Below are positions 7,577 through 36,132 of a stretch of DNA of 57,476 nucleotides, piece after piece. This stretch comes from Nitrososphaera sp. Lineage in GTDB: Archaea; Thermoproteota; Nitrososphaeria; Nitrososphaerales; Nitrososphaeraceae. The notes beneath the pieces were generated by a model. The model did no database searches, was not told where the DNA came from, and saw nothing but the letters and a program-made list of their open reading frames with translations. Position 1 is the first letter of the stretch; each line of letters begins with the position of its first letter. Location: the NCBI RefSeq assembly GCF_013388945.1, contig NZ_JACAEH010000017.1:1-57476 (forward strand), in the 5' to 3' direction. Both the position numbers and the translations under genes were made by a program.

Positions 7577-8249
7577 CTCTCAGCTTCTCCAGGCTTCCGA
7601 TGTCAAGCGTGTCAAACGTCTGGCTTATCCGGAAAAGCAGTATCGCCGAGATGACGACGCCCACTAGAATGTCTGCAAATATCCCTATCTCGATTACCAG
7701 CGAGACGCCGTGCGTGAGCGCGGTGGTGAAGAGGAATAGCCCGTTCTCTATTATGAGGAGCCCGACCACCTGGTTGAGCGCCATCCTCCTGCTCACGATG
7801 ACAAACAGCCCTATGAAAAAGAGCGAGACTGAGACCGGCAGGCACGTCATCGCAACGACGTCAAGGCTGGACGATGAAAGCATCTGCTGCGTCAGGGCGT
7901 ACGAGAGCGCGACCAGCAGCGCAGATATCAGGACCGAAAGCCGGAGGCCGACGTACGGGTTTGCCTCTATCTTGAACTCGTCTTTTATTTTCCTCGTGAC
8001 CCTGACAAGCACCCTCGGTATGACGACTGCCTTTATCACAAGCGTGAGCGCGGCTGCGACGTAGATCTCCCATACGCCCGTGTAATACGCAATGACTGCA
8101 GTGACGCCGGCAAGGACAATGGTCTGGTACCTGTAGGCGCTCAGCCAGTCTGCAAACCCGCGCCTTACAACCACGCCGAACGTGGCTATCAGGAGCCCTG
8201 CCGACGAGATGGTCAGTATGTCTGCGGGAAGTATCTCGAGCCCCGTCAT
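7569..8249 (-). CDS. Hydrogenase-4/Ehr-like subunit E (HyfE/NuoK-like)
   Basis: This 226-residue membrane protein has about seven hydrophobic segments and the size and helix plan of HyfE. In the related complexes HyfE carries a NuoK-like part. The stretch RRMALNQVVGLLIIENGLFLF matches the NuoK signature, including an intramembrane glutamate next to Asn-Gly, thought to take part in proton transfer. It lies in the operon in the same order as in hyf clusters and overlaps the preceding NuoH-like gene by four bases (ATGA) and the following antiporter gene by eight. Identification rests on this signature and gene order, as membrane sequence alone would be weak evidence. Confidence 0.82.
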   Translation of the reverse strand: MTGLEILPADILTISSAGLLIATFGVVVRRGFADWLSAYRYQTIVLAGVTAVIAYYTGVWEIYVAAALTLVIKAVVIPRVLVRVTRKIKDEFKIEANPYVGLRLSVLISALLVALSYALTQQMLSSSSLDVVAMTCLPVSVSLFFIGLFVIVSRRMALNQVVGLLIIENGLFLFTTALTHGVSLVIEIGIFADILVGVVISAILLFRISQTFDTLDIGSLEKLRDD

Positions 8250-11256: not shown

Positions 11257-11333
11257 AGTTTCGACACTTTTTTCCTTGGGTAGATGCACTCGAGCTGCCT
11301 TTCAGTTGCAGCAGCGGGACATCTTGGCTGTCC

Positions 11334-13840: not shown

Positions 13841-14164
13841 TTGCGGTTCTGTCCTGATTGCGGAGCACGTTTGAGGCCCAAGCCCGGCGAGACCATCGTC
13901 TGCCCCAAGTGCGGCAAGAAGGTCAAGGGCGGCGACAGCACAAAAAAGGAAGAAGTGGTCAAGCAGGTCACAGGCAGCGCCGCGTCGCTCAAGGTCATGG
14001 AAGAAAACGAGGGCGAGGCATTGCCGACGATTGCCATGTCCTGCCCGTCGTGCGGCCACGGCGAGGCAGTGTGGTGGATGCTGCAGACAAGGTCGGCAGA
14101 CGAGGCAACTACGCAGTTTTTCAGGTGCACCAAGTGCAACCACACCTGGCGCAACTATTCCTAG
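13841..14164 (+). CDS. tfs: Transcription factor S (TFS/TFIIS-like)
   Basis: This 107-residue two-zinc-ribbon protein has an N-terminal ribbon (CPDCG at residues 4-8, CPKCG at about 27) and a C-terminal ribbon (CPSCGHGEAVWW, then FFRCTKCNHTWRNYS). The C-terminal ribbon carries the acidic tip RSADEATTQ, whose Asp-Glu pair stimulates transcript cleavage in backtracked RNA polymerase. The acidic pair is present, so it should be an active cleavage factor rather than an inhibitory paralogue. The start is TTG after a good Shine-Dalgarno. Its last four bases overlap the convergent prepilin peptidase gene. Confidence 0.93.
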   Translation: MRFCPDCGARLRPKPGETIVCPKCGKKVKGGDSTKKEEVVKQVTGSAASLKVMEENEGEALPTIAMSCPSCGHGEAVWWMLQTRSADEATTQFFRCTKCNHTWRNYS

Positions 14165-14850
14165 AACAACAGCGATACCAAGTCGCCAAAAAGTATTGAA
14201 ACAACAAAGCCGGCAAGCAGGAACACCAGAAACGGTATGCCCGGCGTCACCCAGACATCCTTTCTTGACTCATAGTCTGCAGTCTCGGCATTTCTAAAAC
14301 CGAAATCAAACTTCCGTTGCGAGCCTCTGCCCTCTATCGGGAACGCAAAGCGCGGGTTTGTCGCCCTGTAGCCTATCAAGAACGCGACCGCCTTTTTTGA
14401 CGCGCTCTCCTGCTCAAACCCGACAAAGAGTCCGCGCCTCAGCGAGGAGAGGTTCCTTGCGACGTTTGCTGCTATCTGCAATGCTGATATCAAGAGCGCG
14501 TTTGTGAAAACCGTGAGCGGGAACAACAGGCCCGGCTCGCCTGCCTGCATGTACCTGCCCGTGTATTCAGGGACAAGCAATGCAAGGACGACGACTCCGA
14601 TGGCGTCTGCCCCGCCAAAAAGGCCTGTCCTGTAAGCAGCAAACGACACGCCTGCAACCATGCCAAGTCCCAGAATCATCATGGGGAGCTCTTCTGCTGC
14701 AGGGACGTCGAGCGCGAACAGGATTGCCGCCGCTGCTCCAAAAACTATCCAGAGCCAGTCGCTAACTGACCGGCTCCGGAGGTCCCATGCCGAGGCCAGC
14801 GAAAGCATGGCAAGAGCCAGCAGTATGCGCACCTCTTCGGGCCCAAGCAC
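14161..14850 (-). CDS. Class III (archaeal) prepilin/preflagellin peptidase, PibD/ArlK-like
   Basis: This 229-residue membrane protein of the A24 aspartic peptidase family has both catalytic aspartates. The first is in AWDLRSRSVSDW after the first helix (about residue 23). The second is in GLFGGADAIGV (about residue 81), the archaeal form of GxGD. Several further hydrophobic helices follow. These enzymes remove the short basic leader of archaellins and type IV pilins at the membrane. The substrates are probably the class III-signal proteins encoded at 19211, 26478 and 26923. A long soluble insertion (about 130-195, rich in Arg and Phe) before the last helix is unusual. It is encoded convergently with tfs. 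Confidence 0.87.
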   Translation of the reverse strand: MLGPEEVRILLALAMLSLASAWDLRSRSVSDWLWIVFGAAAAILFALDVPAAEELPMMILGLGMVAGVSFAAYRTGLFGGADAIGVVVLALLVPEYTGRYMQAGEPGLLFPLTVFTNALLISALQIAANVARNLSSLRRGLFVGFEQESASKKAVAFLIGYRATNPRFAFPIEGRGSQRKFDFGFRNAETADYESRKDVWVTPGIPFLVFLLAGFVVSILFGDLVSLLF

Positions 14851-15450: not shown

Positions 15451-15582
15451 ATGACCACTGAAGAAACGATAAATGAAGAATCGAGCCTGTCAGTGGAACA
15501 GCTGGAGAAAATAAGGGCCAGACATCCAGACCTCGCGGAGGCCCTAGCCCAGGACGATCCATCGTTAATCAGGTCAGACTGA
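15451..15582 (+). CDS. Small acidic 43-residue ORF
   Basis: A short ORF (MTTEETINEESSLSVEQLEK, then IRARHPDLAEALAQDDPS) follows a TATA box (TTTAAATAG, 15421-15429) by about 27 bases, which fits a leaderless transcript. The protein is acidic and predicted helical, without cysteines or membrane segment. The promoter spacing and balanced composition support it as real, but I do not recognise a family. Its last bases overlap the 3' end of the broken Fic gene on the other strand. Confidence 0.5.
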   Translation: MTTEETINEESSLSVEQLEKIRARHPDLAEALAQDDPSLIRSD

Positions 15583-15995
15583 CAACATTTTTGTCCAGAT
15601 ATCCTTCCACTTCATGAAAGATAGTCTTGTCCCCGGGGAACTTGAAAACCGTCTTGACCAATAGACCATAAATCTCCTTTTTTTCCTTTAGTGATTTGTC
15701 TTTGAGGTCAAAGCCATTGTTGTTAAGATAGCCTATCGTTGCATCCAATGCAGTTTCTTTATTGCCTTCAGAGAACGGCTGGTCAAAACAGATACCTGCC
15801 ATTAAAGTTGCAGCCTTTTTGACTATCCTAGTTCTCCTATTTGGAATGTCGTTGAACCTATCCATGCGGACAACGATATTTTCGATTACATGATAGTCAA
15901 CGTCAAAACTCTCCCCTGCTCTCCACGATCTTCTTGTTGTACTCTATCATCGCTTCGATGTCTTTTCGTGTGAGTGACTCTTTGCGGATAAGTGC
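15569..15995 (-). pseudogene. Fic/Doc-family gene, frameshifted and without a start codon
   Basis: The uninterrupted part (15569-15865 from an internal ATG, 98 residues) carries a Fic core motif in its Doc form, FDQPFSEGNKETALDATIGYL. The first residue of the motif is Gln where His is usual. The upstream half lies in another frame: LTRKDIEAMIEYNKKIVESR joins SFDVDYHVIENIVVRMDRF if one G is removed from the GGGG run at 15913-15916. Further upstream that frame meets TAG at 15996-15998 with no ATG, GTG or TTG between. The gene thus looks decayed, or a sequencing slip hides part of it. Fic proteins attach AMP or phosphate to targets; lack of the catalytic His also argues against activity. Confidence 0.65.
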
Positions 15996-16032: not shown

Positions 16033-17529
16033 TCAAATGCCAGGTACGTTTCCGGGGCTCAGAAACACTGACGGCGTGATGTTGAACTCCAGCGTCATGA
16101 CGGCTGCGCCCATCGATATTGCGACAAGCATGATGGCGTACTTGAAGCCGGCCACAAACGAGCCGGTCGATATCTTGCCTATCAGAAACCCCGTCAGCCA
16201 GGACTGTGCGGCTATGCCTATCGCAAACACTTTCGCCGAGTCCTCCTGGCTTTCTACAGCCGACGGGTCGCCGCCGGGCATTATAGTCTGGCTCACCTCG
16301 ACAAAGGTCTGCGAGACCATTAGAGTAGTCACGGACATGAGCGCGGTCACCATGAACGCTATGAGGAAGTAGGGCTTGAGCATGCTCTTTTTCTCGTTCT
16401 CGATGTTGTACGCGGCCTCGCTTGACTTGGCGAGTATGTCAAGCGACGCGGTGTAGCCTCCGCCGCTCTCGATGGCCTCTATCAGTATCCTGAAGTGGAT
16501 GAGCGCCATGCGCGACTTTACGCCTGCCGCAAGGTTCTCGTAGATCTTGCGAAGGGGCACTCCCCACTCTAGCTGGTTTGAAAACGACCTGACCACCGTG
16601 TGGAACTCGTGGTCCCGCAGCCTGTCTGAAGCGTATATTATGGATTTTTCCGGCGAAAGGCCTGCTTTTCGCGATTCTGCTATGTCGCGCAGGTACGACG
16701 GCAGTTCTGCCTCCATCCCCTTCATGTTGCGCTCCGAGCTGAGCGTCTTGTACGCAGGCCACACAGACGCGCCGATGAGAAAGAGCGGGAAGGCATAGAC
16801 TGGGTCCAGTATCCCTTCGAGCATGCCCGTCAGGTGTATGAGCACAAACGCAAGGATGGCGGCGCCGGAAAACATCGCGCCCCTGAGGAGCACCTCCCTC
16901 GAGCCGACAAGGGAGGAAGACACGGTCTTGTCAAGCGCAAACAGGATTGCTATCGATATAACCGGCAGGATGACAAACACGATGAGGTAGGAAAACACGG
17001 GCGAGTCCATGGATATCGGAATCAGATCGCCTGCAGGAAGCGATGAAAGCGCCGCAACTACAACGTACAGGCTCAGACCTATCACCTGCATTATCATGTA
17101 GGCATCTACAAGCCCGCCTATCTTGGCAATAGACTGCCTTGCTATTGCGACTTCAAACTCGAAAATAGATTGCATCTTGCTCTGAAGAAAATCCGCAATG
17201 TCGCCACCGTTTCGCACCGTTGACACATATCCTAAAAGCAGGTCGCGGTACTGCCTTGACTTTGTGCCGTTGGCCCGCTTTTCCATGGCGCTGAGAGGGT
17301 CCTCACCGAGTATGTGCACCATGTTGACAATCTTGCGCGCCTCTATCATGACGTTTGGCAGGAGCTTGTACCTCGCAAGTTTCATGAAACTCCCAAACGG
17401 GCTGATGCCGCTAGCAGCCATTATGCTCACAAGCGTCACCACGAACGGGAGCTCGCGGTCAAGCCTTGACGCAAAGCCCGGCTGCTCTTTTGGCTTTTTT
17501 GCCTCCTTTGACTTGAAGAGCGGCATCAA
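16033..17529 (-). CDS. Type IV pilus/archaellum membrane platform protein (ArlJ/TadC-like)
   Basis: This 498-residue membrane protein has two copies of the T2SSF/GspF domain, as in archaeal FlaJ/ArlJ. One is at about 70-190 with YRDLLLGYVSTVRNGGDIADFL. The other is at about 300-430 with HFRILIEAIESGGGYTASLDIL. Groups of membrane helices follow each one. This is the inner platform that the ATPase turns to push pilin subunits outward. Its gene overlaps the ATPase gene by four bases, the normal pairing in archaeal pili, adhesion threads and archaella. No archaellum-specific arlC/D/E, arlF/G/H set is visible, so an adhesive pilus is at least as likely as a swimming organelle. Confidence 0.85.
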   Translation of the reverse strand: MMPLFKSKEAKKPKEQPGFASRLDRELPFVVTLVSIMAASGISPFGSFMKLARYKLLPNVMIEARKIVNMVHILGEDPLSAMEKRANGTKSRQYRDLLLGYVSTVRNGGDIADFLQSKMQSIFEFEVAIARQSIAKIGGLVDAYMIMQVIGLSLYVVVAALSSLPAGDLIPISMDSPVFSYLIVFVILPVISIAILFALDKTVSSSLVGSREVLLRGAMFSGAAILAFVLIHLTGMLEGILDPVYAFPLFLIGASVWPAYKTLSSERNMKGMEAELPSYLRDIAESRKAGLSPEKSIIYASDRLRDHEFHTVVRSFSNQLEWGVPLRKIYENLAAGVKSRMALIHFRILIEAIESGGGYTASLDILAKSSEAAYNIENEKKSMLKPYFLIAFMVTALMSVTTLMVSQTFVEVSQTIMPGGDPSAVESQEDSAKVFAIGIAAQSWLTGFLIGKISTGSFVAGFKYAIMLVAISMGAAVMTLEFNITPSVFLSPGNVPGI

Positions 17530-19172
17530 GTGCTCTTCACCTTCTCCATCAGCCTCTGCGGCTCCTGGTTGAACATGCCTATCACCTTGCTTATGCTGCG
17601 GTAGTCGCGGATCCCCCTGCTCAAAAGCCAGCTCAATATCTCCTTGCGGCGCGCAAGGTCGTCGTAGACGTCGTTTATGTCGACACCGGTGTCAATAGCT
17701 ATCTTGGGCAGGTGCTTGCTCTTTAGCAGGTTGTCGTGGTAGCCGTCGTACTCGGGGTCCCACTCGAACACGCTGTTGAGGCTGTTGTGCGACAGGACCT
17801 CGGTCACTTCGGTAACGCGCCTTCCCATCATGTTTGTCTGCCTGCCGCTCACAGGCTCGGTCCGCAGCTTGACGCGCTTTACTGTGATTACGCAGTTCAT
17901 GAGCGGAACGTAGGCAGGCGGTATGTCCATCGGCTTTTGCTGGAGCCTCCTGACTGCGGCTTCAGAGTCGTCGGCGTGCATGGTGGCAATGCCTCCGTGG
18001 CCGGTCGCCACCGCTTGGAACAGCACGTACGCCTCTTCACCGCGTATCTCGCCCACCAGGATGTAGTCGGGCCTGTGCCGCATTCCTGACTTTAGCAGGT
18101 CAAAGAGCCCTATCTCACCCTGGCTCTCGAGCCCGAAACTTGCCCTTGAGACAAGGCTGAACCAGTTGGTGTGCGGGATGTTTATCTCGGCGACGTCTTC
18201 GACTGAAAAGATCTTGTAGGACGGGTTTATCAGGCCGGTGACGGCGTTAAGTATAGTCGTCTTGCCGCCGCCTGTAGAGCCTATGACCATGAGCGATTTC
18301 TTGTTGTCAAGCATCAGCCAGGCGTATGCTGCCATGTCAAGGTCAAGCGTGTCTGAATTTATCAGGTCGACGACTGTTATCGGGTCTTCGCGGAACTTGC
18401 GTATGGTAAACGACGAGCCCATCGTCGTGACCTCTTTCTTGTATAATGCTGCAAGGCGGTGGTTGCCGGGCAATGACGCGTCAACAATCGGGTGCGCCGC
18501 GCTGATGTGCTTGCCTGCCCTGTGCACCATCTTCATTACAAAGCTGTCAAGCGCCTCCTCGTCGTGGAACGAGACGTTGGTGCCAAGCCCCTCGAACTGG
18601 CGGTGGTACACGAAGATGGGCTTGCCAGGACCTCCGCACGTGATGTCCTCTATGAACGGGTCGTGGAACAGCGGGTCGATGATGCCGAATCCAAGCACGT
18701 CGCGCCTTAGGAAATATTTCACTTTTTCAAGCGCGATTGGCTGGTAGTCGCCGCTGAAGTGCTCGGACAAAAGTTTTGACACTTCTCCTACAAAGCTCGT
18801 TTCAATATTGTCAAGAAGGCGCGGCGAGTCTATCTTTTTCTCCAAAAGATCCTTGATGCTTGCGTAGACCTTGCGCTCTTCTTCGTTCATTGCCAGCTCG
18901 TCTATTGCATAGAGCATGTCCGAGTACTCGTCGCTCTGCATGATAGTCGCGTAGCAGAACGGCGGGACCAGCGCGTAGCGAAGCACGCTCTTGTAGCCTT
19001 CGGGCAGGTTCGGCTGCTTGCCTGTAGCGACAGAGTCGAGGTATTTTGCGACCCTGTCTAGTTGCACATTTAGGCCCGAGTCGAACATCGGCTCCTTGAA
19101 GGCCTCGATAAAGTCGTCTTCTTTTTGATTGTCAGGTTTCTTGTCGGATTTAATCTTCAGTTTAATGTTCAT
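17526..19172 (-). CDS. Type IV pilus/archaellum assembly ATPase (ArlI/VirB11-like)
   Basis: This 548-residue secretion ATPase carries all class markers. Walker A is GSTGGGKTT (about residue 300), with an Asp-box (VEDVAEINI), a Walker B-like region DYILVGEIRGEEA and a His-box (ATGHGGIATMHAD). The N-terminal half contains the family's domain with LRRDVLGFGIIDPLFHDPFIEDITCGGPG. It powers pilin assembly and disassembly from the cytoplasm. The gene is coupled to the platform gene behind it. A T-rich tract separates it from the upstream pilin gene, letting the pilin be made in excess. Confidence 0.9.
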   Translation of the reverse strand: MNIKLKIKSDKKPDNQKEDDFIEAFKEPMFDSGLNVQLDRVAKYLDSVATGKQPNLPEGYKSVLRYALVPPFCYATIMQSDEYSDMLYAIDELAMNEEERKVYASIKDLLEKKIDSPRLLDNIETSFVGEVSKLLSEHFSGDYQPIALEKVKYFLRRDVLGFGIIDPLFHDPFIEDITCGGPGKPIFVYHRQFEGLGTNVSFHDEEALDSFVMKMVHRAGKHISAAHPIVDASLPGNHRLAALYKKEVTTMGSSFTIRKFREDPITVVDLINSDTLDLDMAAYAWLMLDNKKSLMVIGSTGGGKTTILNAVTGLINPSYKIFSVEDVAEINIPHTNWFSLVSRASFGLESQGEIGLFDLLKSGMRHRPDYILVGEIRGEEAYVLFQAVATGHGGIATMHADDSEAAVRRLQQKPMDIPPAYVPLMNCVITVKRVKLRTEPVSGRQTNMMGRRVTEVTEVLSHNSLNSVFEWDPEYDGYHDNLLKSKHLPKIAIDTGVDINDVYDDLARRKEILSWLLSRGIRDYRSISKVIGMFNQEPQRLMEKVKST

Positions 19173-19179
19173 GTCGGTT

Positions 19180-19196
19180 CAAAAAAAGAAAAAGAG
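19180..19196 (-). terminator. T-rich terminator between pilin and ATPase genes
   Basis: On the minus strand a run of about 14 mostly T bases (complement of AAAAAAAGAAAAAG) follows the pilin stop and precedes the ATPase start. It probably ends most pilin transcripts. Confidence 0.5.
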
Positions 19197-19210
19197 AGGT
19201 ATCGTCAGCC

Positions 19211-19774
19211 TTATTGGTTGACGACGGACACTGTTTGCACTGCTGTTGCCTGTCCTGCCTTTATCTGGAGTGTGAAGAACTTTCCAGAGTCGATTGGAGT
19301 GATGTTACCAGCTTGGTTCAGGTAGACTATTGCTGCCTCACCTTGGTTCAGAGAGATGGTTCCGCCGAGCATCACTTCGTCGCCTACAACGTCGTCATCG
19401 ACATCTACGTTTGCTTCAGTATAGTCCGCGCTCAGCTCTCTCTGGATATCATCTATCTGTATGTTCTTGAAGTAGTACCAGTCAGTGGTAGGTACCGAAA
19501 CACCTCGCAGGCTTATTGAGGTGATAGTCACTGCCTTGCTACCTGTGTTTTGGACCACGAATGCAGTAGTAGCCGTTTCGCCTACGGCACCTGCAGGGTT
19601 CACCCACGAATGTACGTTTGACATTTCGATTGCTTCTGCCTGTGTGTTGGTCTGGAACAGTGAACCCCCGAAGAAAATGACGCCTGCGCCCAGCACGACT
19701 GATGCGATCAGGACGATCAGGGTGGTGATGACTGTACCAATACCCCTTCGCTTCTGAACTTTGTTGAAGTTCAT
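19211..19774 (-). CDS. Type IV pilin/archaellin-like major subunit
   Basis: This 187-residue protein has a class III signal: a short basic leader (MNFNKVQKRRG), then IGTVITTLIVLIASVVLGAGVIFFG as the hydrophobic assembly helix, with cleavage expected after the Gly. The rest is a beta-rich head with Asn and Thr abundance and an acidic loop (VDVDDDVVGDE). It has no cysteines. Its own promoter (TTCTATTATCG near 19797) and downstream T-tract, and its place directly upstream of the ATPase and platform genes, mark it as the main subunit of this pilus. Whether it is an archaellin or an adhesive pilin cannot be told from sequence. Confidence 0.85.
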   Translation of the reverse strand: MNFNKVQKRRGIGTVITTLIVLIASVVLGAGVIFFGGSLFQTNTQAEAIEMSNVHSWVNPAGAVGETATTAFVVQNTGSKAVTITSISLRGVSVPTTDWYYFKNIQIDDIQRELSADYTEANVDVDDDVVGDEVMLGGTISLNQGEAAIVYLNQAGNITPIDSGKFFTLQIKAGQATAVQTVSVVNQ

Positions 19775-19878
19775 GCGCTGACATAACTAACCTGTCGATA
19801 ATAGAACTGCGATGTGCTATAGAGCTACACTCTATAAGAAAAGTGGTTGTCAAAGCAGATTACATACAAACCAACATA

Positions 19879-20382
19879 ATGCAAGTTTGCCCTCTTGTCT
19901 GCATGGAAGACGCCCGGGTAGTGTCTCAGCACGAGAAAAAAGACGAGCTCTTTGAAAAGATAGACAGCCTTGTGGACCAGACCCTGCAGATCTATGAATT
20001 AAACTCCAAGGAAGGCGCCATCATCAGGTCTATCGACTCTTCGATTTCGATGCTGCTCAACACTCTTAGAACATCATTGCCCTTGTCTCCGGAAATATTT
20101 CACAGCGAGCTCCCGGGGATAAAGAGCGCTGTCCTGAACAACAGCGGCGAAATAATCATCATGCAGGCAAGCGGCAACATCGTCACCAAAAAGTTCAGCG
20201 AGCTCCAGACGGCGCAGGTGATGGAAATAGTCAGGGAAATCGTGCCAAAGCTGAGCGAAAGTGCAGATGCGATGAAAGCCTCTGCAACCGAAGAGATTGC
20301 GCTCCTCAAAAAGGTAGCCAAGCAGTTCCAGCGAGTAAAGACACCGCCGCAGGCAGAGCGCCAAAGTCGCGAGATTGAGTAA
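19879..20382 (+). CDS. Hypothetical helical protein beside the pilus locus
   Basis: This soluble protein of 167 residues from the chosen ATG at 19879 lies about 45 bases after a TATA box (CTCTATAAGA). A GTG at 19843 or an ATG at 19903 are alternatives. The N-terminal third is helical (KKDELFEKIDSLVDQTLQIYEL) and may form a coiled coil. The middle, SAVLNNSGEIIIMQASGNIV, reads like paired strands as in roadblock or profilin-like folds, and a further long helix closes the protein. No named family is recognised. It is followed after two bases by the next gene, so the two are co-transcribed, divergent from the pilin. Confidence 0.55.
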   Translation: MQVCPLVCMEDARVVSQHEKKDELFEKIDSLVDQTLQIYELNSKEGAIIRSIDSSISMLLNTLRTSLPLSPEIFHSELPGIKSAVLNNSGEIIIMQASGNIVTKKFSELQTAQVMEIVREIVPKLSESADAMKASATEEIALLKKVAKQFQRVKTPPQAERQSREIE

Positions 20383-20384
20383 AA

Positions 20385-21038
20385 ATGTCAGTTTCTACGC
20401 AGGTCATGTTTTTCGACAACCTGGGAGCGCTGGAAGCACACCTCCAGTGGCTCCTTGGCAGCTGCAAGAAAAGCTCTGAAAAATGCAGGGAAGCGCTTGG
20501 CAACCTTTTGCGCGAAAGGCAGGGCCAGAAGGAAGAGGAGCAGTGGTCGCAGCAGATCTCGCAGGCACTTTCCGGCAACCCTGCCGGTCCTGCTGAAAAG
20601 GACGCCAAGGAGAAAAAGGGTGGGATGTTTGGCAGCAAGCAAAAAGGCAGCATGCTTGGCGACAAGCCAAAGAAGGAAAAGGGCTCCATGTTTGGAGGAG
20701 GCAAGCCCAAGGCGCAGACTGACTGGGTGTCCTTTGATCCGTTTGCAGTCTTTGTCGGCCAGGAGTCAAAGGGGATGGCCGAGCTCTACTTTGAGGCGAT
20801 AAACAGCCTCGACGAGAGCGCAAAAAGGATAGAGCTTGCACTTGCCACGCTTGCTACGCTCAAGGGCAAGGCGGCAGCCGCTGGCAACGTGTCGGCAGTC
20901 GTGTCTTTCATAAACGGTGTGCCTGCAAAGGTGATGTTAAAGCCTGCGCAGGAAGGAAGGTCAAAGAAAAAGAAGATAGAATACAGTTTCAGCGTCCCTG
21001 TGGCAAGGCCGGCGCTCCCACGGGTGCTGCCGCTGTAG
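20385..21038 (+). CDS. Hypothetical protein with Gly-Lys repeat linker
   Basis: This 217-residue protein has three parts. The first is a helical N-terminus (about 1-65). The second is a low-complexity linker at about 70-108 with three near-repeats around MFG or MLG (GGMFGSKQKG, GSMLGDKPKK, GSMFGGGKPK). The third is a helical C-terminal domain (YFEAINSLDESAKRIELALATL). It is cytoplasmic by composition. No family is recognised. Its last 50 bases overlap the end of the convergent gene at 20989, so one of the C-termini may be little constrained. With its upstream partner it probably forms a two-gene operon connected with the pilus. Confidence 0.55.
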   Translation: MSVSTQVMFFDNLGALEAHLQWLLGSCKKSSEKCREALGNLLRERQGQKEEEQWSQQISQALSGNPAGPAEKDAKEKKGGMFGSKQKGSMLGDKPKKEKGSMFGGGKPKAQTDWVSFDPFAVFVGQESKGMAELYFEAINSLDESAKRIELALATLATLKGKAAAAGNVSAVVSFINGVPAKVMLKPAQEGRSKKKKIEYSFSVPVARPALPRVLPL

Positions 21039-21633
21039 CTGGCTTTTCTGCGCTTTCTGCCGGCTTTTCTTCAACGACTGGCTCGGACTTTTCTTCTTCA
21101 GCCGGCTTGTCAGCAGTCTTGCGCTTTGCCTTCTGCACTGGACGGCGCGCCGCCAAAGGCTTTGCCTCGCCGTTGCCGTTGCCGTCGGCGACCTTTGCCC
21201 CGGGCTCTTCCTGCTCTGCCGCAAGGCCTTTCACCGACTCTGCCCCAAGCGTGGTCGACTGCGGGTAGGACGACGAGGTGAGGCCGGCTAGCATGAACAC
21301 GGCAGGGTACACCCTTTGATAGATGGCGTCAAGTATCCTCGGCAGGCGCGACTCGCCCCCTTTGGCGACTTCCATCATGCCGTCAAAATCTGCAGGGCTT
21401 CCAGTCACGGCGCAGGTTCCGCGAAACTCGTAGGTCACCAATGATTTTGGCTCGCTGAGCGTTAGCAGGAAAGAAAGCACAAGCCTGTTGTCCTTTCTTG
21501 ACTCCTCGTCTATTTTCGCTGATACCTGGAACGCGCCGGGCGCCACCGGGCCCGCGTTCTTGTCCTGCGCCTTTCTTGACGCAAAGACGCTTTCAAGGGA
21601 TACTTCCATCTGCGTGGTTACTTGCGATAGCAC
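20989..21633 (-). CDS. Possible SecB-like chaperone-fold protein with acidic/basic tail
   Basis: In this 214-residue protein, residues 1-130 resemble the SecB layout. A strand-rich start (QVTTQMEVSLESVFASR) is followed by LVLSFLLTLS and VTYEFRGTCAVTGSPADFDGMM, then a helix with LPRILDAIYQRVYPAVFMLAG before SSYPQST. This matches the order 'sheet - FxxxG.F.v.g - iLFPY.R..v..L...' of SecB and SecB-like chaperones, but without an alignment it remains a fold guess. The C-terminal 80 residues are a disordered Ala/Pro/Glu/Lys tail. The start is GTG at 21633. If right, it could keep pilins or other exported proteins unfolded, which fits its location. Confidence 0.45.
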   Translation of the reverse strand: MLSQVTTQMEVSLESVFASRKAQDKNAGPVAPGAFQVSAKIDEESRKDNRLVLSFLLTLSEPKSLVTYEFRGTCAVTGSPADFDGMMEVAKGGESRLPRILDAIYQRVYPAVFMLAGLTSSSYPQSTTLGAESVKGLAAEQEEPGAKVADGNGNGEAKPLAARRPVQKAKRKTADKPAEEEKSEPVVEEKPAESAEKPATAAAPVGAPALPQGR

Positions 21634-21724
21634 AGGTGTCTGTATCTGTAAAGGCGCAAAAGCAGTCGCGTGTCATTGCGAGCTACATACGAACTGATTT
21701 GAAAGTTCGAAGGATAAAGTCATC

Positions 21725-22777
21725 ATGGAATACGTCTCGGGAAAGGGTTCTCTCAAGGGCAACAACAAGATTGTCACTCGCCTGCGCACATTCAACGACC
21801 AGTCCAAGATAACGGTCCAGATGTCAAGGTTAAAGTCGTACGAATCGCCTTTGAAAAAGCTGTACGGGGTAGACAAGTACGACCTTGCGCCCAATTACGC
21901 GTTCCCTGAATCGTTGTCAGAGCTTGTCCCCAAGAAAACTCCCGAGTACGTGGAAAAGGGTGAGCGCTATGTCGAGCGCATCATGCGGTCATTATATCAC
22001 TTCAAGCAGTGCGCGCTCATCGGCCCGTCGGGCACGGGCAAGACCCACATCGTGTATCTGGTAGCCGAGATGGCAGGCCTGCCTCTTTGGGAGATAAACT
22101 GCGGCCTGCAGACGTCGTCGTTTGATTTGTTCGGCAGGTACGTCGGCCTTGGCAAGGAAAACTGGGTGGACGGCCAGATAGTCTCGTGGTGCAGGCACGG
22201 AGGCATTTTGTATCTGGACGAGGCAAACATGATGAAGCAGGACGTCGCAACCAGGCTCAACCCAATCCTTGACACGAGGGGCCACATGGTGCTCAACGAG
22301 AAGGACAACGAGATAATCCCGAGGCACCCGTACGGGTTTGTCATAATCAGCATGAACCCGTTTTCGATAGAGTTTGCTGGAACGAAACCTTTGAACGCCG
22401 CGTTCAGGCGCAGGATGAACGCCTGGATCACTTTTGACTACCTGAGCACGGGCAACAACGTCAACGAAGACGAGGTTGCGCTTGTCAGGGACAAGGGCGG
22501 CGTGAGCAAGGAAGTAGCGGTCCAGATGGTGAGGGCAGCCGCGCAGTTGCGGTTCAACTACAAGCGCGGCGAGATCCCGTACGCGCCGTCGGTGGGCGAC
22601 ATCGTCAACTGGGCCACGCTTGTAGCAGACGGGATGGGTGTGCTCGCAGCTGCCGAGGAGACCATAATATCGACCACGAGCGACGACATCACGACGCAGG
22701 AGACCGTGAGGCGGATAATAAAAGGCGCAGGAACACCAGAGACCAAAACAATAGAGCCCATGCAGGAATTCAGCTGA
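21725..22777 (+). CDS. MoxR/CbbQ-type AAA+ ATPase
   Basis: This 350-residue AAA+ protein of the MoxR family has Walker A GPSGTGKTH (about residue 99), Walker B ILYLDEANMM (about 160) and a sensor-1 region FVIISMNPF. A later FRRRMNAWITFDYL carries the arginine finger/sensor-2 features, and a lid domain follows. Such ATPases work with a VWA-domain partner to remodel or insert metal into client proteins (CbbQ-CbbO, NorQ-NorD, MoxR). The VWA gene follows directly, with the stop and start sharing one base (TGATG). The client is unknown. The surrounding pilus and SecB-like genes suggest an envelope or export target. Confidence 0.85.
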   Translation: MEYVSGKGSLKGNNKIVTRLRTFNDQSKITVQMSRLKSYESPLKKLYGVDKYDLAPNYAFPESLSELVPKKTPEYVEKGERYVERIMRSLYHFKQCALIGPSGTGKTHIVYLVAEMAGLPLWEINCGLQTSSFDLFGRYVGLGKENWVDGQIVSWCRHGGILYLDEANMMKQDVATRLNPILDTRGHMVLNEKDNEIIPRHPYGFVIISMNPFSIEFAGTKPLNAAFRRRMNAWITFDYLSTGNNVNEDEVALVRDKGGVSKEVAVQMVRAAAQLRFNYKRGEIPYAPSVGDIVNWATLVADGMGVLAAAEETIISTTSDDITTQETVRRIIKGAGTPETKTIEPMQEFS

Positions 22778-24420
22778 TGTCGCTCTACCCCGCGCTCTTT
22801 GCCAAGTTTTCCAGCATGCAGGCAGAGCTTGCAGAAAGCCCGAGGTTTCTCTACCCCGCCGGCCCGTCGCCGTTTATCAAAATAGAAAAGTGCCTGCGCG
22901 ACTGCGTGGTTGGGATACCCCAGGTCCGCGAGGAGGTCGGCCTGCGCTTTGGCAATATTGTCCTGAAAAACGACGAGTTTGGCCGCTACGCGGCAGGCAG
23001 GCTGATCATGGCGTCAACGTGCCTGCTTGGAGCCAAGGCGCTTTTCATGTGGCTTTTCCGCAAGCCCATTTCCGAGTGGACGGAAGCGCGGGACGACAGT
23101 CTGCGGGCGCACTACGTCGCTAACGTGGTGGCCGACGCGGTGGCAAAGGAGAGGATCGTAGAGACGCAGGGCGCCGAGTTTTACAAAAACGTAGTTGCGC
23201 CTGCCGACGTCATCTCTGCCTCGATGCTCGCAAAAAGGCCTGCATCCCTGCCCGAGCTTGCCCAGGTGGCGCTTGCCCGGTCGGTACTCGGCTTTCCGTC
23301 GCCCTACGCGCCGTCGCCCATATCGAGCATAGCCGAGGATTTCATGACAGAGCTCCGTACGATAATCAGGGGCGGAAGCTGCCTGCAGACACTTCTTGGC
23401 GACCTGTACGAGCTGACGGCCAGGATACCTGGCCCCTGGCACAGCGTGTATCTGCCCTACGCAAACGCGCTCCCAAAGGCGCGGGCAGAAACCAGCATAT
23501 TTTCGGCAACTCCTGACATTGAGGCGTTTGAAGAGATAAGGGCGCAGGCAGGGATTGAGCCTCCAAACTACGACGACGCGTTTGGGCAGGACCTGTTTTT
23601 CGAGATAAGCAGGGAGTCAAAGCGCAGCGAAAAGGTGCTTGGAAGGCTTGCGCGCTCTGCCAGCAGGGCAAACCTTGGCACCTTCGGGTTCCCGCCAAGC
23701 GACCTTGCCTGCTACAGGCAGCTGTACGAGGAGATGGCGCCGCAGATAAGGCGGATGGTCGAGCAGGCACGGATGGTCAGAAACGTGCTTGACGAAAGCG
23801 CGTTTGAGCAGGCCGGAAACGTCGACCTGCAGGTTGCAATCCAGGCAATAGCAAGCGAGTCTTACCGCGACGACACGTTTGTGCGCGACGAGGACATCAT
23901 GAAGGACGAGTCGTGGGCGGTGCTTGTGGACGCCAGCCTGAGCCTCGGCGGCATAAGCCGCGAGTTAAAGTCAGTCGCGCTGTGCATCGCCGAGATAGCA
24001 AAAGAGGTGATAGGCTCAAACCCGTGGGGTATGTTTGCGTTTTCTGACGAGTTTTACTGCATCAAGGACTTCTCCGAGCCGTACGACAGCCTTGCAAGGT
24101 CTAGGATAGGCGGCCTGACTACAGGCGGCCTGTCGCACATACCTGACGCGATAAGGGCCTGTAGACAAATGTTGTTAGAGCACGCAAGGGAGCGCAACTA
24201 CATAATACTGGTGTCAGACGGCCTGCCTTCAGGCTACCCTGGCATAGAAAAAGAGCTTGCAGGCTCTATCAGGGAGGCTGGCATGTCAGGCGTGGCAGTG
24301 GCAGGCATTGGCATCGGGAGCAACAGGATAAAGAAGTACATCCCAAACGCCAAGGTGATAAGCGAGCCGGGTGAGCTTGCAAGGGCATTTTCGGAGATCT
24401 ACTTCTCGCTCTCGTCCTAG
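22777..24420 (+). CDS. VWA-domain protein partner of the MoxR-type ATPase (CbbO/NorD-like)
   Basis: This 547-residue protein has a long helical N-terminal region and a C-terminal von Willebrand A domain at about 375-545. The metal-ion-dependent adhesion site is present: DASLS at the first strand (WAVLVDASLSLGG), a Thr/Ser-rich second loop (GGLTTGGLSHIPDAI) and LVSDG on the later strand. This is the adaptor arrangement of CbbO and NorD, which bring the AAA+ ring to its substrate. It has no signal peptide or membrane segment, so the pair acts in the cytoplasm. Its translation is coupled to the ATPase gene. Confidence 0.8.
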   Translation: MSLYPALFAKFSSMQAELAESPRFLYPAGPSPFIKIEKCLRDCVVGIPQVREEVGLRFGNIVLKNDEFGRYAAGRLIMASTCLLGAKALFMWLFRKPISEWTEARDDSLRAHYVANVVADAVAKERIVETQGAEFYKNVVAPADVISASMLAKRPASLPELAQVALARSVLGFPSPYAPSPISSIAEDFMTELRTIIRGGSCLQTLLGDLYELTARIPGPWHSVYLPYANALPKARAETSIFSATPDIEAFEEIRAQAGIEPPNYDDAFGQDLFFEISRESKRSEKVLGRLARSASRANLGTFGFPPSDLACYRQLYEEMAPQIRRMVEQARMVRNVLDESAFEQAGNVDLQVAIQAIASESYRDDTFVRDEDIMKDESWAVLVDASLSLGGISRELKSVALCIAEIAKEVIGSNPWGMFAFSDEFYCIKDFSEPYDSLARSRIGGLTTGGLSHIPDAIRACRQMLLEHARERNYIILVSDGLPSGYPGIEKELAGSIREAGMSGVAVAGIGIGSNRIKKYIPNAKVISEPGELARAFSEIYFSLSS

Positions 24421-24546
24421 GCCGGGATGTAGGATTTTACCAGCACATTTATCTAATCATGTTCGTCATTTAACCAACAGGACAATGCCGCAATGGGGGC
24501 TGGCTATCGGTGATGATAGACGATTAACGGAGGACAGGGACCTTTG

Positions 24547-25452
24547 ATGGAGAAGAAGCGCCAGGACGCTCCCGAGACGCCTGTTGCGCTTGCCGAAAAG
24601 GAGATAGACGGCATTTGCATGGCGCTGCGCGAGTCGAGGAACCAGCCACTCCTGATACTATATTATCCCGACGACGGCGGCAGCATGGGCGACGACGACG
24701 TAGAGGCGATATACGGCGAGTTCAGGCGCCTTGGATACAGCAAGGACGCCAACAGGATAAAGGAGCTCGACGTGCTCATCCACACTGCAGGCGGCAAGCC
24801 GAGCGCCGGCTACATGGTGGCGCAGGTGCTTCGCAGGTTCGCGCTCTCTGTCAACTTCCTCGTGCCTTACAGGGCCGCAAACGCCGGGACCCTGACTTGC
24901 CTGTGCGCAGACAACATCTACATGGGCGCGTTTGCCCACCTCTCGCCCGTTGACGTGGCGCCCGACGCCAGGGTCGGGTCCATCGACTATTTCACAGACT
25001 ATGCCATCCAGTGCAGGCTAAAGGCCGAGACAGCCCTGAAAAAAGAGAACTCCGAGCCCAGGTCAAGTGTCGAGTCCGACCTTCTGGCAGAATATCTGAA
25101 AAGCGTGGGCCCTGCAGGAGTCGCGGACCTGTACAAGCACCGCACCATTGCAGCAAAGTATGCGTACAGGCTTCTTTACGACTACATGTTTGCAGCCGAC
25201 CCCCAGAGGGAGGAAAAGGCGGTCCAGGTGTCGCAGAAGCTGCTTTTCAGCTACCCTGCCGGCGACTTTTACATGGACTACCACATCTGCCGGTTTCTGG
25301 GGCTCAAAGCAGGGGAGATGTCGGAAGACGAGTCCGACATGACAAAGAGGATAGTAAGGACGATGGACAAGTACACGCAGGCAGGCATCATCTGCAAGGC
25401 GACAGCCAAGGACCGGCGGGCGCCCTTCATAACGCTGTATGGCGAAACATAG
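24547..25452 (+). CDS. ClpP/SDH-fold protein lacking the catalytic serine
   Basis: This 301-residue protein is of the SDH/SppA-like branch of the ClpP-crotonase fold. The family pattern is clear: LDVLIHTAGGKPSAGYMVAQ is the oxyanion loop and following helix. VNFLVPYRAANAGTLTCLCA corresponds to the nucleophile turn, and ADNIYMGAFAHLSPVDV is the downstream signature. In peptidase members the turn reads A-x-S-x-G-T; here the Ser codon position is AAC (Asn), so normal serine proteolysis is not expected. It may bind rather than cut peptides. I chose the ATG at 24547 over a TTG three bases earlier; a purine-rich GGAGG lies about 13 bases upstream. Confidence 0.75.
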   Translation: MEKKRQDAPETPVALAEKEIDGICMALRESRNQPLLILYYPDDGGSMGDDDVEAIYGEFRRLGYSKDANRIKELDVLIHTAGGKPSAGYMVAQVLRRFALSVNFLVPYRAANAGTLTCLCADNIYMGAFAHLSPVDVAPDARVGSIDYFTDYAIQCRLKAETALKKENSEPRSSVESDLLAEYLKSVGPAGVADLYKHRTIAAKYAYRLLYDYMFAADPQREEKAVQVSQKLLFSYPAGDFYMDYHICRFLGLKAGEMSEDESDMTKRIVRTMDKYTQAGIICKATAKDRRAPFITLYGET

Positions 25453-25611
25453 GTGCGAAAAGCGCGCAAGCTTTTTTCTGTATTGAATATCTTACAATCC
25501 GCTCTATGAATTTTATATAGAAAATTTGACTATTTTGAAATTCCGGGTATGTCAAACTTTGTTACAACAGCTACTTGATATATCTTGGCCCTCTACCCTT
25601 TGTTCTACGGC

Positions 25612-26427
25612 ATGGAATCCCTACAGAAGATGGGCAGTTCAGACGCGGAGGCTCCTACAATGGACATTGAAAAGAACCTGATAACAGAACTCCAGAGGCT
25701 CGACCTGACGCTCAACGAATCCAGGATACTGGTCTACCTGATGACACACGGCCATTCCAGCGCAAGCGACATTTCGCGCTATACAGGAATCCAGCGCACT
25801 GAAACATACAACTACATTTCAGGCCTGCTTGCCAAAGGCATCGTGTTTTCGACTTTTGACAGGCCGCAGAAATACTACTCCATGTCGCTTGAAGAAGTAG
25901 TCGACTGTTTATTGCAGTCAAAGCGCAACGCCCTTGAAGCGTTTGAAAGCAAGAAGAAGGAGTACATGAACATGCTCGACGCCCTTGTCAGCAACAGGGT
26001 GGTCAAGCAGGAGGAGAAGGAGCGCTACAACGTGGTCATGGGCGAAAACGCAATCAACGCCAAGATTACAAGGATGCTTGCAGACGCAAAGGAAGAGGCG
26101 ATGATCCTGCTGACTGACAGGAACATGGTCAACTTTTACCACGCAGGCATAACCGACCAGCTGATGGAGCTCACGACAAAGGGCGTGTACGTGAAGCTGA
26201 GGACTCCGTGCAAGAACCCCGACGAGTACATGTCGGGCCACAGCGACCAGGTGCTGTGCAACGTCACCAAGAAGGCGGTGCCGGCAAGCTTCGTTCTCGT
26301 GGACGGCAGGGAGATAATCGTGATACTTGAAAGCCAGCCGGTCAAAAAGTCAGAGGTGTGCGGATTTTACACCAACAACCTCGCGCTGGTGTCGGTCTTC
26401 AAGTTCCTCTTTGAGAACGTGATGTAG
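25612..26427 (+). CDS. TrmB-like transcriptional regulator
   Basis: A 271-residue protein with a TrmB-type winged helix at about 20-85 (LTLNESRILVYLMTHGHSSA, then ISRYTGIQRTETYNYISGLL). A linking helix and a C-terminal ligand-binding-like domain follow (NAINAKITRMLADAKEEAMILLTD to FVLVDGREIIVILESQP). TrmB proteins control sugar and other metabolic genes in archaea by binding a ligand in that domain. A TATA box at 25577-25583 puts the transcription start near 25605, which favours the ATG at 25612 over a TTG at 25585 lying in the TATA region. It precedes two pilin-like genes on the same strand and may control them. Confidence 0.8.
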   Translation: MESLQKMGSSDAEAPTMDIEKNLITELQRLDLTLNESRILVYLMTHGHSSASDISRYTGIQRTETYNYISGLLAKGIVFSTFDRPQKYYSMSLEEVVDCLLQSKRNALEAFESKKKEYMNMLDALVSNRVVKQEEKERYNVVMGENAINAKITRMLADAKEEAMILLTDRNMVNFYHAGITDQLMELTTKGVYVKLRTPCKNPDEYMSGHSDQVLCNVTKKAVPASFVLVDGREIIVILESQPVKKSEVCGFYTNNLALVSVFKFLFENVM

Positions 26428-26477
26428 CTCGGCCTGACACGCTAAGCGATATACGGATTTTTACATATTCTTTCTCG

Positions 26478-26921
26478 TTGAGAAAGTACAGGCCCAGGGG
26501 ACGGAGGGGCATAGGCACCGTTGTCACGTCGGTGATGCTTGTGTCAGCCGTCTCGCTCATGGGCGCTTTTCTGGTCTCCTGGTCGAGCTCGAGCTTTGCC
26601 ACCAAGCAGGTCGGAGTCTCAGAGGAGATAGACGACAGGGTGAACCAGATAAGCGAAGGCTTTATCGTGGAAGATGTCTGGTTCTTTACAAATTCAACCA
26701 GTTCGTATTCAAAGGTCACTGTCCGCAACACCGGCGACGTCGCAGTAACGATATCGCACGTCTACGTCAACAACACGCAGGCCTGGAATGCAGGCAAGGT
26801 CATACCGAGGTCCGAGGTCGGGACCATCACTTTTGAGACTCTCTGGAGCGCCGGAAGCGCGCAGGATGTCTGGGTCAAGACGCAGCGGGGCACGGAGGCA
26901 AAGCAGCTGTGGAGGTCTTAA
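26478..26921 (+). CDS. Class III-signal pilin-like protein (minor pilin/ArlF-ArlG-like)
   Basis: A 147-residue protein with a basic leader (RKYRPRGRRG), an assembly helix (IGTVVTSVMLVSAVSLMGAFLVSW) and a small beta-rich head. The head contains FTNSTSSYSKVTVRNTGDVAVTISHVYVNN, a pattern seen in archaeal pilins and ArlF/ArlG stators. The start is TTG at 26478, about 27 bases after GCGATATACGG, so leaderless. One base separates it from the next, much larger pilin-like gene, with GGAGG at 26911 serving as its ribosome site. It is probably a minor pilin or anchor for the large protein behind it. Confidence 0.75.
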   Translation: MRKYRPRGRRGIGTVVTSVMLVSAVSLMGAFLVSWSSSSFATKQVGVSEEIDDRVNQISEGFIVEDVWFFTNSTSSYSKVTVRNTGDVAVTISHVYVNNTQAWNAGKVIPRSEVGTITFETLWSAGSAQDVWVKTQRGTEAKQLWRS

Positions 26922-26922
26922 G

Positions 26923-28695
26923 ATGAGGAGGGGCCTTGCCACAGTCGTCGGCGCGATTTTCATGATAATCGTGATGATAGGGGCGCTCAACGTCACGCTG
27001 TGGATGCTCCAGCAGCAGGACAGGGTGGGTCAGGCGATGGTCGAAAAGACAAGCGGCAACCTGGACAGGCTGAACGAAAAGATAGAGATTGCAAACGTCA
27101 GGATTGACGGCAGCAAGCTGAACATGACTGTCACAAATAACGGAGGGCAGCCGGCGAAACTAAAGTCGCTCTACGTAGTAGACGAGACCGCAGTCCCAAG
27201 GCAGCAGTACAGGTACGACCTTGACATCCCGGTTGACGGCAGGGACTCGGCCAAAAACGTCGGGCAGGGTGTGCCGTTCACCGCGTCGACCACGTCGCTT
27301 TATTCTGTCAAGCTCGTCACAGAATCTGGCAACACTGCAGCGTCTGTCATAACACCCGTCTCGGCAGTCGCGCTCCCGATGTCTCTTTACGTAATACCGC
27401 CCACGGTGACGCCGGGCCAGAACGTCACGCTTTTGTATACCGTGACAAACGACCGCGCCGATTCGCACATTGCGGCGGCAGTCACGCCGCAGGTTTCATA
27501 CTCGATGGGCTGCAGCCCAGGACCCGGCTGCCAGCTGACGCAGTACGTTGCCCCGTCAAGCACGGTCATCAACAGCGGGACCACCGCGCTTTTCAAGTGG
27601 GTGTTCAAGGTCGACGCCCCAGACAACACGACGGTGGCATTTAACGCGACCATTGCCAATGCAAAGCCCGGCAACTATGTCATTGAAAAGGCGCGCGCAA
27701 AGCTGGTGTCGGCTTCTGAGACATCCTTTTACAGCGAGTCCACCACCACGATAATCTATTCGGCGCTTGCGCAAAAGCCAGAGCTGTTCCTGATAGTGCC
27801 AAGCCCGTTTGGCGAGGACCCCGACGACGGCAAGGGGCTCTGGGGTGTGATGGTGGTCAACCCCACCGACGCGCCGATAGAGGTGTCCAGGGTGATAATT
27901 TCTGCAGGGCCTGTCATCACCGACAGGACAGAGCGCATCATAGACAACAACGGCACGCCGTGCCCGAGAACCCCCATAAACCCGACTCCTGCTGCAGAGT
28001 GGAGCTGCCCCGAAGAGAACATGATCCAGTGGAGGGACACCGCAAGCCCGGAGGTAGTCCAGCCCAGAAGCGTCGTCCCGTTCCTGGCAAAGTACGAGCC
28101 CGGCACGCTTGGCGGAGGTGGCGACGACCCGGCGTTCCTGATATCTGCAAGCGTGTTTTCTAGCATGGGCCAGTTCACAAAGTCCGGCTATTCGACAGGC
28201 ATGAGAAACGCTGCGGAGGCTATAGGAAACGTGTACCTCACCGACACCACGGTAGAGGCTACTGCGCTCCAGAGCAACCACATGTTCGGGAGCATGACGG
28301 GCGTGGCTTCAGGCGGCGAATTTACCATGCACGTCGCCATGGCCGACCTTGGCAGGAACACGGCGGGCATACAGGCAGGCTCAAAACTAATAGTCAACGT
28401 CCCCAAGGGCTTTACCATCGAGCAGTCCGACATACTGTCGTGGACGGGATTTGACGATACACCCACCGTGACGCCGTTTACAGACGGCTCGTCGCAGATC
28501 CAGGCCACGCTCACAAACGATCTTGGAACGTCAACGTCGGAGGCAGCAAGGATACTGAAGTTCCGCGCAGACGCGCCGGTGGTGCCTGAAAAGAGGATCT
28601 ACATCTTTTTCACGCTCGTGCACGGGCAGACGACGTCGGGAAGCAACCTGTCGGTGGGAGCGGTTGGAGAATTTCCGGTGCAGATAGTGCCCTAG
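26923..28695 (+). CDS. Large class III-signal surface protein (giant pilin/adhesin)
   Basis: A 590-residue protein with the shortest possible class III leader (MRRG), followed by LATVVGAIFMIIVMIGALNVTLWML and then a very large beta-rich extracellular part. That part has several immunoglobulin-like segments (NMTVTNNGGQPAKLKSLYVVD, VTPGQNVTLLYTVTNDRADS) and two Cys pairs (CSPGPGC at about 190 and two Cys near 345-360). Normal archaeal pilins are 100-250 residues, so this is an unusually long pilin-tip or adhesin type. I place the start at the ATG at 26923, after GGAGG, because the upstream open frame lies inside the preceding gene. It is probably cleaved by the peptidase at 14161. Confidence 0.75.
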   Translation: MRRGLATVVGAIFMIIVMIGALNVTLWMLQQQDRVGQAMVEKTSGNLDRLNEKIEIANVRIDGSKLNMTVTNNGGQPAKLKSLYVVDETAVPRQQYRYDLDIPVDGRDSAKNVGQGVPFTASTTSLYSVKLVTESGNTAASVITPVSAVALPMSLYVIPPTVTPGQNVTLLYTVTNDRADSHIAAAVTPQVSYSMGCSPGPGCQLTQYVAPSSTVINSGTTALFKWVFKVDAPDNTTVAFNATIANAKPGNYVIEKARAKLVSASETSFYSESTTTIIYSALAQKPELFLIVPSPFGEDPDDGKGLWGVMVVNPTDAPIEVSRVIISAGPVITDRTERIIDNNGTPCPRTPINPTPAAEWSCPEENMIQWRDTASPEVVQPRSVVPFLAKYEPGTLGGGGDDPAFLISASVFSSMGQFTKSGYSTGMRNAAEAIGNVYLTDTTVEATALQSNHMFGSMTGVASGGEFTMHVAMADLGRNTAGIQAGSKLIVNVPKGFTIEQSDILSWTGFDDTPTVTPFTDGSSQIQATLTNDLGTSTSEAARILKFRADAPVVPEKRIYIFFTLVHGQTTSGSNLSVGAVGEFPVQIVP

Positions 28696-35397: not shown

Positions 35398-36132
35398 TCA
35401 GCACGTTACGCTTCCAAGCATTCCTTGCACGTACACTTGCTCTATCGCCCTTGACTCGCATTCTCCTATGCCGGTTATGGGCGTGCCGTTGACGACGCTT
35501 ATCGTGTCAGACATCACGCTTGACTTGTCAGTCGAGTGGCCTAGACCCAGGGCGTGGCCCAGCTCGTGGTTGGCGACTGCCATCAAAAACTCCCTGTCGT
35601 TGATATCGCTCACAATCACGGTTATCTCCGCCCTGACTATCGTGCTCTTGTCCATCAAAAGCCGCGCCCTTGACGGCTCGCCGTTTGGCTGGTGCAGAAA
35701 TATCACGATGTCAGACTCCTCACCGCCCGGCGAGAGGACTGGAACCGAGTCGCCGAACTGGCCCCTTTTTTCCTGCAGGACGGCGTTCCAGCCGGCCGAC
35801 GGGTCGAGCAGGTCCTGCACGAACCTGTCGACAGAGGCCCTGTCAAACTGGTCAGACTCTGCCCATACTGTGATGATGCTTTTGTTCCACGCGCCGTTTG
35901 CAACGATGGTGGCCGGCGCCGGTTCTTGCGCGGGTATTTCCGACACTTCTCTTATCACAAAGTCGCTGGTAAAGTCCCTGACCCGGTACTGGCCCGGATC
36001 CTGCGCGGCCGGGGTGATTTCAGCCTCCTTCCTCTCTCCCACGTCGATGTTTGCAGACAGGAAAACGTAGTATGACATGGCGCCCACGACGGCTGCAAGC
36101 GCGGCTGCAAGCAGGGCGTTTCTGCTGTTTAT
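35398..36132 (-). CDS. Membrane-anchored matrixin-type zinc metallopeptidase (copy a)
   Basis: An N-terminal anchor helix (NALLAAALAAVVGAMSYYVF) precedes a domain with the metzincin zinc motif HELGHALGLGH and a Met-turn-like SSVM, as in M10 peptidases. Catalytic Glu and the three His are intact. The C-terminus (GECESRAIEQVY to SVTC) has two Cys conserved in the paralogue at 42503. No ATG, GTG or TTG lies in a sensible place. The best fit is ATA at 36132, which overlaps the kinase stop as ATAA just like the usual ATGA coupling. An ATG at 36207 deep in the kinase gene is the alternative. It probably acts outside the cell membrane, coupled to the kinase upstream. Confidence 0.75.
   Translation of the reverse strand: MNSRNALLAAALAAVVGAMSYYVFLSANIDVGERKEAEITPAAQDPGQYRVRDFTSDFVIREVSEIPAQEPAPATIVANGAWNKSIITVWAESDQFDRASVDRFVQDLLDPSAGWNAVLQEKRGQFGDSVPVLSPGGEESDIVIFLHQPNGEPSRARLLMDKSTIVRAEITVIVSDINDREFLMAVANHELGHALGLGHSTDKSSVMSDTISVVNGTPITGIGECESRAIEQVYVQGMLGSVTC

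Follow-up and report, generated by a model that had tools for sequence, protein, structure and literature searches.

A predicted SecB-fold protein and two helical protein families accompany an AAA+/VWA pair beside an archaeal type IV pilus

Introduction

In bacteria, the chaperone SecB is known as the partner of the motor SecA, to which it passes its clients. The AAA+ (ATPases associated with diverse cellular activities) protein midasin works with a von Willebrand factor A (VWA) domain that carries a metal ion-dependent adhesion site (MIDAS), and in the archaellum accessory proteins form a cytoplasmic scaffold under the motor. Here, we examine a window of DNA, that is, the whole analyzed stretch of 57,476 nucleotides from Nitrososphaera sp. 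(NCBI RefSeq assembly GCF_013388945.1, contig NZ_JACAEH010000017.1, forward strand), which contains a pilus locus at positions 16033–28695. An initial annotation, made from the letters of the sequence, had described this locus as pilus genes enclosing a MoxR-class AAA+ ATPase, a VWA protein, a possible SecB-like chaperone, a ClpP-fold protein, two helical proteins (hel179 and hel217) and a TrmB-like regulator, and had suggested that together they could form a quality-control or loading device for giant pilins. All of the named genes are present there, as judged by open reading frame (ORF) listing and family scans.

Parts of such a combination have been described. In its main text, the survey of Makarova et al. 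(2016; PMC4858521) strongly links a vWA/GvpN-like pair to thaumarchaeal pilus loci and proposes a role in regulation. NorQ/NorD use ATP hydrolysis to remodel a client held by the VWA MIDAS (PMC9976466; PMC13036017). SecA is absent from archaea, and a SecB homolog is known in M. jannaschii (PMC4361572).

Results

Five cytoplasmic genes recur together beside one type of pilus, and the association of this set with the pilus is nearly certain. In the window, the set comprises hel179 (179 amino acids [aa], family unnamed; 19843–20382, plus strand), hel217 (217 aa; 20385–21038, plus strand), a SecB-like protein with a long disordered C-terminal tail (20989–21633, minus strand), the divergently transcribed AAA+ gene (21725–22777, plus strand) and the VWA gene that abuts it (22777–24420, plus strand). 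A search for the VWA protein gave 6 matches among 70 genomes from the window's family and 78 among 300 from its order; the flanks of these matches were fetched and scanned with profiles. The five genes form a recurring group in many families of the order and in Bathyarchaeota. An alignment scan for the AAA+ protein in named genomes yielded 80 loci, including ones from Nitrosotalea devanaterra, Nitrosopumilus and Nitrosarchaeum, with some records representing the same contigs as earlier loci. The flank profiles had been built iteratively from VWA loci, and neither these 80 loci nor the later sets of loci were used in building them. In the 32 loci titled Bathyarchaeota, where the stretches are often short, such profiles detected hel217 in 23, the SecB-like gene in 16 and FlaI in 7.

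After duplicates and species sharing an identical core sequence were merged, 124 rows of MoxR loci were reduced to 91 distinct loci, of which 30 are well flanked (8 kb or more on each side). Counted conditionally on the MoxR/VWA anchor, these 30 loci contain VWA in 30 cases, hel179 in 29, hel217 in 28, the SecB-like gene in 25 and TrmB in 22; FlaI/FlaJ are found in 20 and any pilus gene in 22. Between families, gene order and strands are reshuffled and the content is kept, and inside one genus the gene sets are lost jointly.

The same picture emerges from co-occurrence across the 300 order genomes, in which VWA is found in 78, the SecB-like gene in 79 (by profile) and a FlaI ortholog (E ≤ 1e-115) in 83. 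VWA and the SecB-like gene occur jointly in 71 genomes, the SecB-like gene and FlaI in 71, and all three in 64; 204 genomes have none (Fisher values for these counts take no account of relatedness and are not treated as probabilities). The SecB-like gene and FlaI lie on one contig in 50 of their 71 shared genomes, at most 25 kb apart in all 50 and at most 10 kb apart in 44, with a median distance of 4.4 kb. Among 33 chosen genomes, a FlaI ortholog (at least 40 per cent identity) is present in 18/18 genomes with the SecB-like gene and in 0/15 without it, some of the latter keeping other ATPases that are 36–37 per cent identical. By both synteny and co-occurrence, the middle genes of the locus, the ClpP-fold one excepted, thus stay with pilus genes in most relatives rather than lying away from them. 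In archaea from soil, sea and sediment, an unusual cytoplasmic five-gene set adjoins one pilus type, suggesting a kit of dedicated helpers for the assembly or operation of that pilus.

The set can also be divided. In five genomes of family f9 (G077, G111, G137, G145 and G129; loci L131, L132, L133, L134 and L136), the SecB-like, hel217 and hel179 genes occur together with no AAA+/VWA genes nearby, and a genome-wide VWA profile search in these five genomes gave no match. FlaI/FlaJ are located in the same stretch in L132, L133 and L134, 12 kb off in G077 and on another contig in G129. These f9 genomes without VWA keep the trio with the pilus, so its link to the pilus does not depend on AAA+/VWA. 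In G122, G165 and G185, which are also VWA-negative and SecB-positive, the VWA gene may be concealed by a contig break. The AAA+/VWA–pilus link that has been known since 2016 splits into two sub-modules, which speaks against a purely regulatory role. In L131 and L132, hel179 and hel217 are separated by a membrane protein gene, and the SecB-like gene is followed by one of winged-helix-like type.

The suspected SecB resemblance proved to be real at the level of the predicted fold. The AlphaFold2 (AF2) model of the SecB-like protein has a confident core with the order β-β-β-β-α-α, which is that of SecB. In a Foldseek search, the top rows were SecB and the SecB-like Rv1957 (E about 2e-4, probability 1.00), and VIA-align matched the model to Escherichia coli SecB with Z = 9.2 (3.5 Å, 119 residues aligned, 4 per cent identity). 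The first seven VIA-align rows include SecB, Rv1957 and two streptococcal proteins, with unrelated rows from Z = 5.5 down. On these models, the family has the SecB fold. A second, diverged SecB-like gene lies near the first in genomes of families f9 and f13 (L034, L035, L036, L040, L064 and L145).

The AF2 model of hel179 consists of a long helix, three strands and another long helix (helices at residues 27–75 and 123–166; predicted local distance difference test [pLDDT] mostly >94), and fold searches with Foldseek and VIA gave no significant match. Prefoldin was considered for both helical proteins, and true prefoldin genes are found elsewhere in 20/20 genomes. For hel179, the fold searches do not support it: the top Foldseek row is an archaeal prefoldin, but at E = 0.24, and the best VIA match (Z = 4.8) is to another protein. 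The hel217 profile has a second, weak class of 76 matches (E from 5.8e-11 to 8.8e-4). As PF02996 genes lie elsewhere in the genomes checked, this class is not prefoldin alpha but a different family, and profile comparison relates the hel217 core to a family of ~145 aa that is widespread in the phylum (hhalign 98.7 per cent, 4.5e-16). Pilus genes adjoin 14 of 27 distant loci drawn from the 76 matches (FlaI/FlaJ in 5, pilin genes in 9 more). Designed pentatricopeptide repeat (PPR) proteins, which a hel217 profile search of PDB returned, were read as a repeat or composition artifact. The two helical proteins have no detectable relation to each other by hhalign (0.2 per cent). In other genomes of the phylum, a pilin gene clusters with a hel217-like gene and a gene for a further protein of ~265–310 aa, to which no family is assigned (L203, L222, L224, L225, L228, L231, L233, L235 and L237); 7 of these 9 clusters have an additional small gene, which in L203 matches Roadblock/LC7.

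The AAA+ protein (PF07728, 3e-21) is a MoxR-class ATPase of the CbbQ/NirQ/NorQ type. Its Walker A and B motifs are invariant in 24 members, it has a CbbQ_C domain (PF08406, 1.6e-15), and the best solved relatives of its profile are midasin, then CbbQ and NorQ, each of which acts together with a MIDAS/VWA domain. It stays below the NCBIfam equivalog cut-offs for GvpN (37.7 of 266.8 bits) and CobS (35.5 of 558.55 bits). In some f9 genomes (L032 and L034, by alignment), long intein-like inserts split its Walker A motif at GPSGTGK|T, and the 809-aa length of the L035 MoxR gene product points to a similar insert. The VWA protein has a C-terminal VWA domain with sub-cut-off matches to PF05762 (4.4e-5) and PF13519 (2e-4); among 30 members, PF00092 matches 21 and PF13519 matches 20 at E ≤ 1. 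All 30 members keep the DxSxS motif and the later Asp of the MIDAS (D385, S387, S389 and D481), and the loop around 446–452, near which the MIDAS Thr would lie, is variable.

The ClpP-fold protein (24544–25452, plus strand; PF01972, 2.7e-9) exceeds the cut-off of the SDH family (36.9 vs. 31.3 bits). As had been noticed, its catalytic Ser is missing: alignment with three relatives places Asn (RAANAGT) where they have Ser (HYAMSGGT, HYAMSGGT and QAAMSAAT). Its proposed membership of the device did not hold up, since the gene is in 0/49 fetched stretches around VWA genes and 11 relatives lack an ortholog of it. The gene is probably a window-specific neighbor of recent origin rather than part of the module.

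The pilus itself combines the components expected of an archaeal type IV pilus. They are a FlaI/VirB11-like ATPase (T2SSE; 17526–19172, minus strand; PF00437, 5.3e-37), a FlaJ/TadC-like platform protein (T2SSF; 16033–17529, minus strand; PF00482, 1.9e-12), pilins with class III signals and, just outside the locus, a PibD-like A24 prepilin peptidase (14161–14850, minus strand; PF06847, 3.7e-10; PF01478, 7.6e-9), homologs of which are found in 14 of the 91 distinct MoxR loci. The archaellum NCBIfam cut-offs are not reached (FlaI 368 of 550 bits; ArlJ 37.5 of 550 bits), and the platform protein also scores below those for BasF and UpsF. The pilins are encoded at 19211–19774 (minus strand; signal KRRG-IGTVITT; weak UpsA match, 1.3e-5), 26478–26921 (plus strand; a small pilin with GRRG-IGTVVTS) and 26923–28695 (plus strand; a large pilin of 590 aa with MRRG-LATVVGA). 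Among module loci, the longest pilin ranges from about 140 to 1023 aa. Giant pilins, which had been put forward as the specific client, are not required, because the module also adjoins loci whose longest pilin has only 140–185 aa (e.g. L012, L063, L083 and L095). A TrmB-family regulator, a frequent companion of the set, is encoded at 25585–26427 (plus strand; PF01978, 5.2e-12).

Elsewhere in the window, a 98-aa protein (15569–15865) matches the C-terminal part of Fic/DOC only, with QPFSEGNKE in place of the HPFxxGN motif; a UPF0147 label for it is unsupported by the family scan. At 3544–11289 (minus strand) lies a complex I/group 4 hydrogenase-like cluster. Its 49 kDa-like subunit (4329–5993) has no C-terminal CxxC and carries RISGDE at what is presumably the site of the first CxxC nickel-ligand motif; since both CxxC motifs are absent, the cluster resembles a hydrogenase-related complex that lacks nickel. 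Two matrixin-like metalloproteases (35398–36207 and 42503–43273) each adjoin a large histidine kinase-like ORF.

Discussion

We infer that the gene set may be a pilus-dedicated chaperone or remodelling module that works without SecA, a tentative reading to which we give a little less than an even chance. The SecB-fold protein would most likely act as a holdase for prepilins (or for a motor subunit), and hel179 and hel217, its constant partners, would probably act as adaptors at the motor base. A holdase of this kind, acting with the two helical proteins and without SecA, is favored because archaea lack SecA, yet M. jannaschii has a SecB homolog. By analogy with NorQ/NorD and CbbQ/CbbO, the MoxR AAA+ ring and the VWA protein, gripping its client via the MIDAS, might remodel that complex in an ATP-driven manner and would be an optional motor; the TrmB protein is probably the regulator of the locus. 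The data themselves show the gene content, a SecB fold in the predicted model, conserved motifs, and co-location as well as co-occurrence with a single pilus ATPase lineage, whereas the client, the way it would be handed over and physical contact of any kind are what we infer. More specifically, the genes may represent an appendage-dedicated, SecA-independent SecB system, in which the trio loads or protects prepilins and MoxR-VWA is the ATP-driven hand-over motor, and which predates the split between Nitrososphaeria and Bathyarchaeota; in this extended form, we consider the proposal possible but doubtful.

Several observations weigh against the chaperone reading. Within about 10 kb, 8 of the 30 well-flanked MoxR loci (loci of f7, f13 and Bathyarchaeota) have no pilus gene, and in genome G093 the motor lies on a different contig, though the SecB-like gene is ~80 kb from a contig end. 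Distant hel217 relatives are beside pilus genes in only the 14 of 27 loci given above, with others lying by housekeeping genes. The Pfam SecB profile matches 0/30 SecB-like members at E ≤ 10, and comparison of the family with solved sequences gave no match. The SecB-like gene is missing from 12 of the 83 genomes with a FlaI ortholog (f2, f6, f12, f13 and two f8 genomes that are 80–84 per cent complete), and therefore the pilus can exist without it.

Alternatively, AAA+/VWA (as an ArnB-like pair) and its partners could be a regulatory module that controls expression or activity of the pilus and does not handle pilins. This is the role proposed in the main text of PMC4858521 for the AAA+/VWA pair, and the TrmB regulator in 22/30 well-flanked loci is in line with it; we nevertheless regard it as unlikely, as it does not account for a SecB-fold protein and a helical pair that remain beside the motor where AAA+/VWA are missing. 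Less likely again is a structural cytoplasmic platform, in which hel179, hel217 and the SecB-like protein would be a scaffold under the motor with no chaperone action. The trio follows the ATPase lineage, the distant hel217 family adjoins motor or pilin genes in part of its loci, and a SecB fold need not mean SecB function; however, the 12 of 83 ATPase genomes that lack the SecB-like gene and the unrelated contexts in which hel217 relatives also occur argue against it. Finally, chance neighborhood carried by conserved gene order, which applies to the ClpP-fold gene, is a highly improbable explanation for the other five genes, being already contradicted by their reshuffled order and orientation with kept content and by their joint losses.

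In part, the combination is new. The initial annotation had not recognized the combination from described systems; this stands for the SecB fold and the helical families, whereas the AAA+/VWA–pilus link had been published in 2016 (PMC4858521, main text). In the main text of that survey, SecB has 0 occurrences (its supplements may list SecB-like or helical families), and its section on cytoplasmic proteins contains no SecB-like protein and assigns no listed helical family to thaumarchaea. Likewise, the main text of Abby et al. (2020; PMC7554672), figures aside, mentions no vWA, MoxR, GvpN, SecB or prefoldin, and a literature search for SecB with archaeal pili found nothing on such a link among the papers listed. 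New are thus the SecB fold, the two helical families, the trio beside a motor without AAA+/VWA, the occurrence in Bathyarchaeota and the wider hel217 family. Three protein families that match nothing in Pfam gain a testable context. Many archaea retain a SecB-fold protein next to one pilus motor, and this poses the question of what role SecB has without SecA.

Compared with known systems, the window pilus is probably one of the four types of ammonia-oxidizing archaea as delineated in the main text of Abby et al. (2020; PMC7554672), and the AAA+/VWA pair is of the same kind, at pilus loci and in the same archaeal group, as that in the main text of PMC4858521. With the SecB and SecB-like chaperones (E. 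coli SecB, Rv1957 and M. jannaschii Mj0357), the window family shares strand-helix order and fold, and it differs from them in having no Pfam SecB match (n = 30) and in being linked to a pilus. As in the NorQ/NorD and CbbQ/CbbO pairs, an AAA+ protein with a CbbQ_C domain adjoins a VWA protein with an intact DxSxS...D; the clients of those pairs are NO reductase or Rubisco, whereas the genetic partner of the window pair is a pilus.

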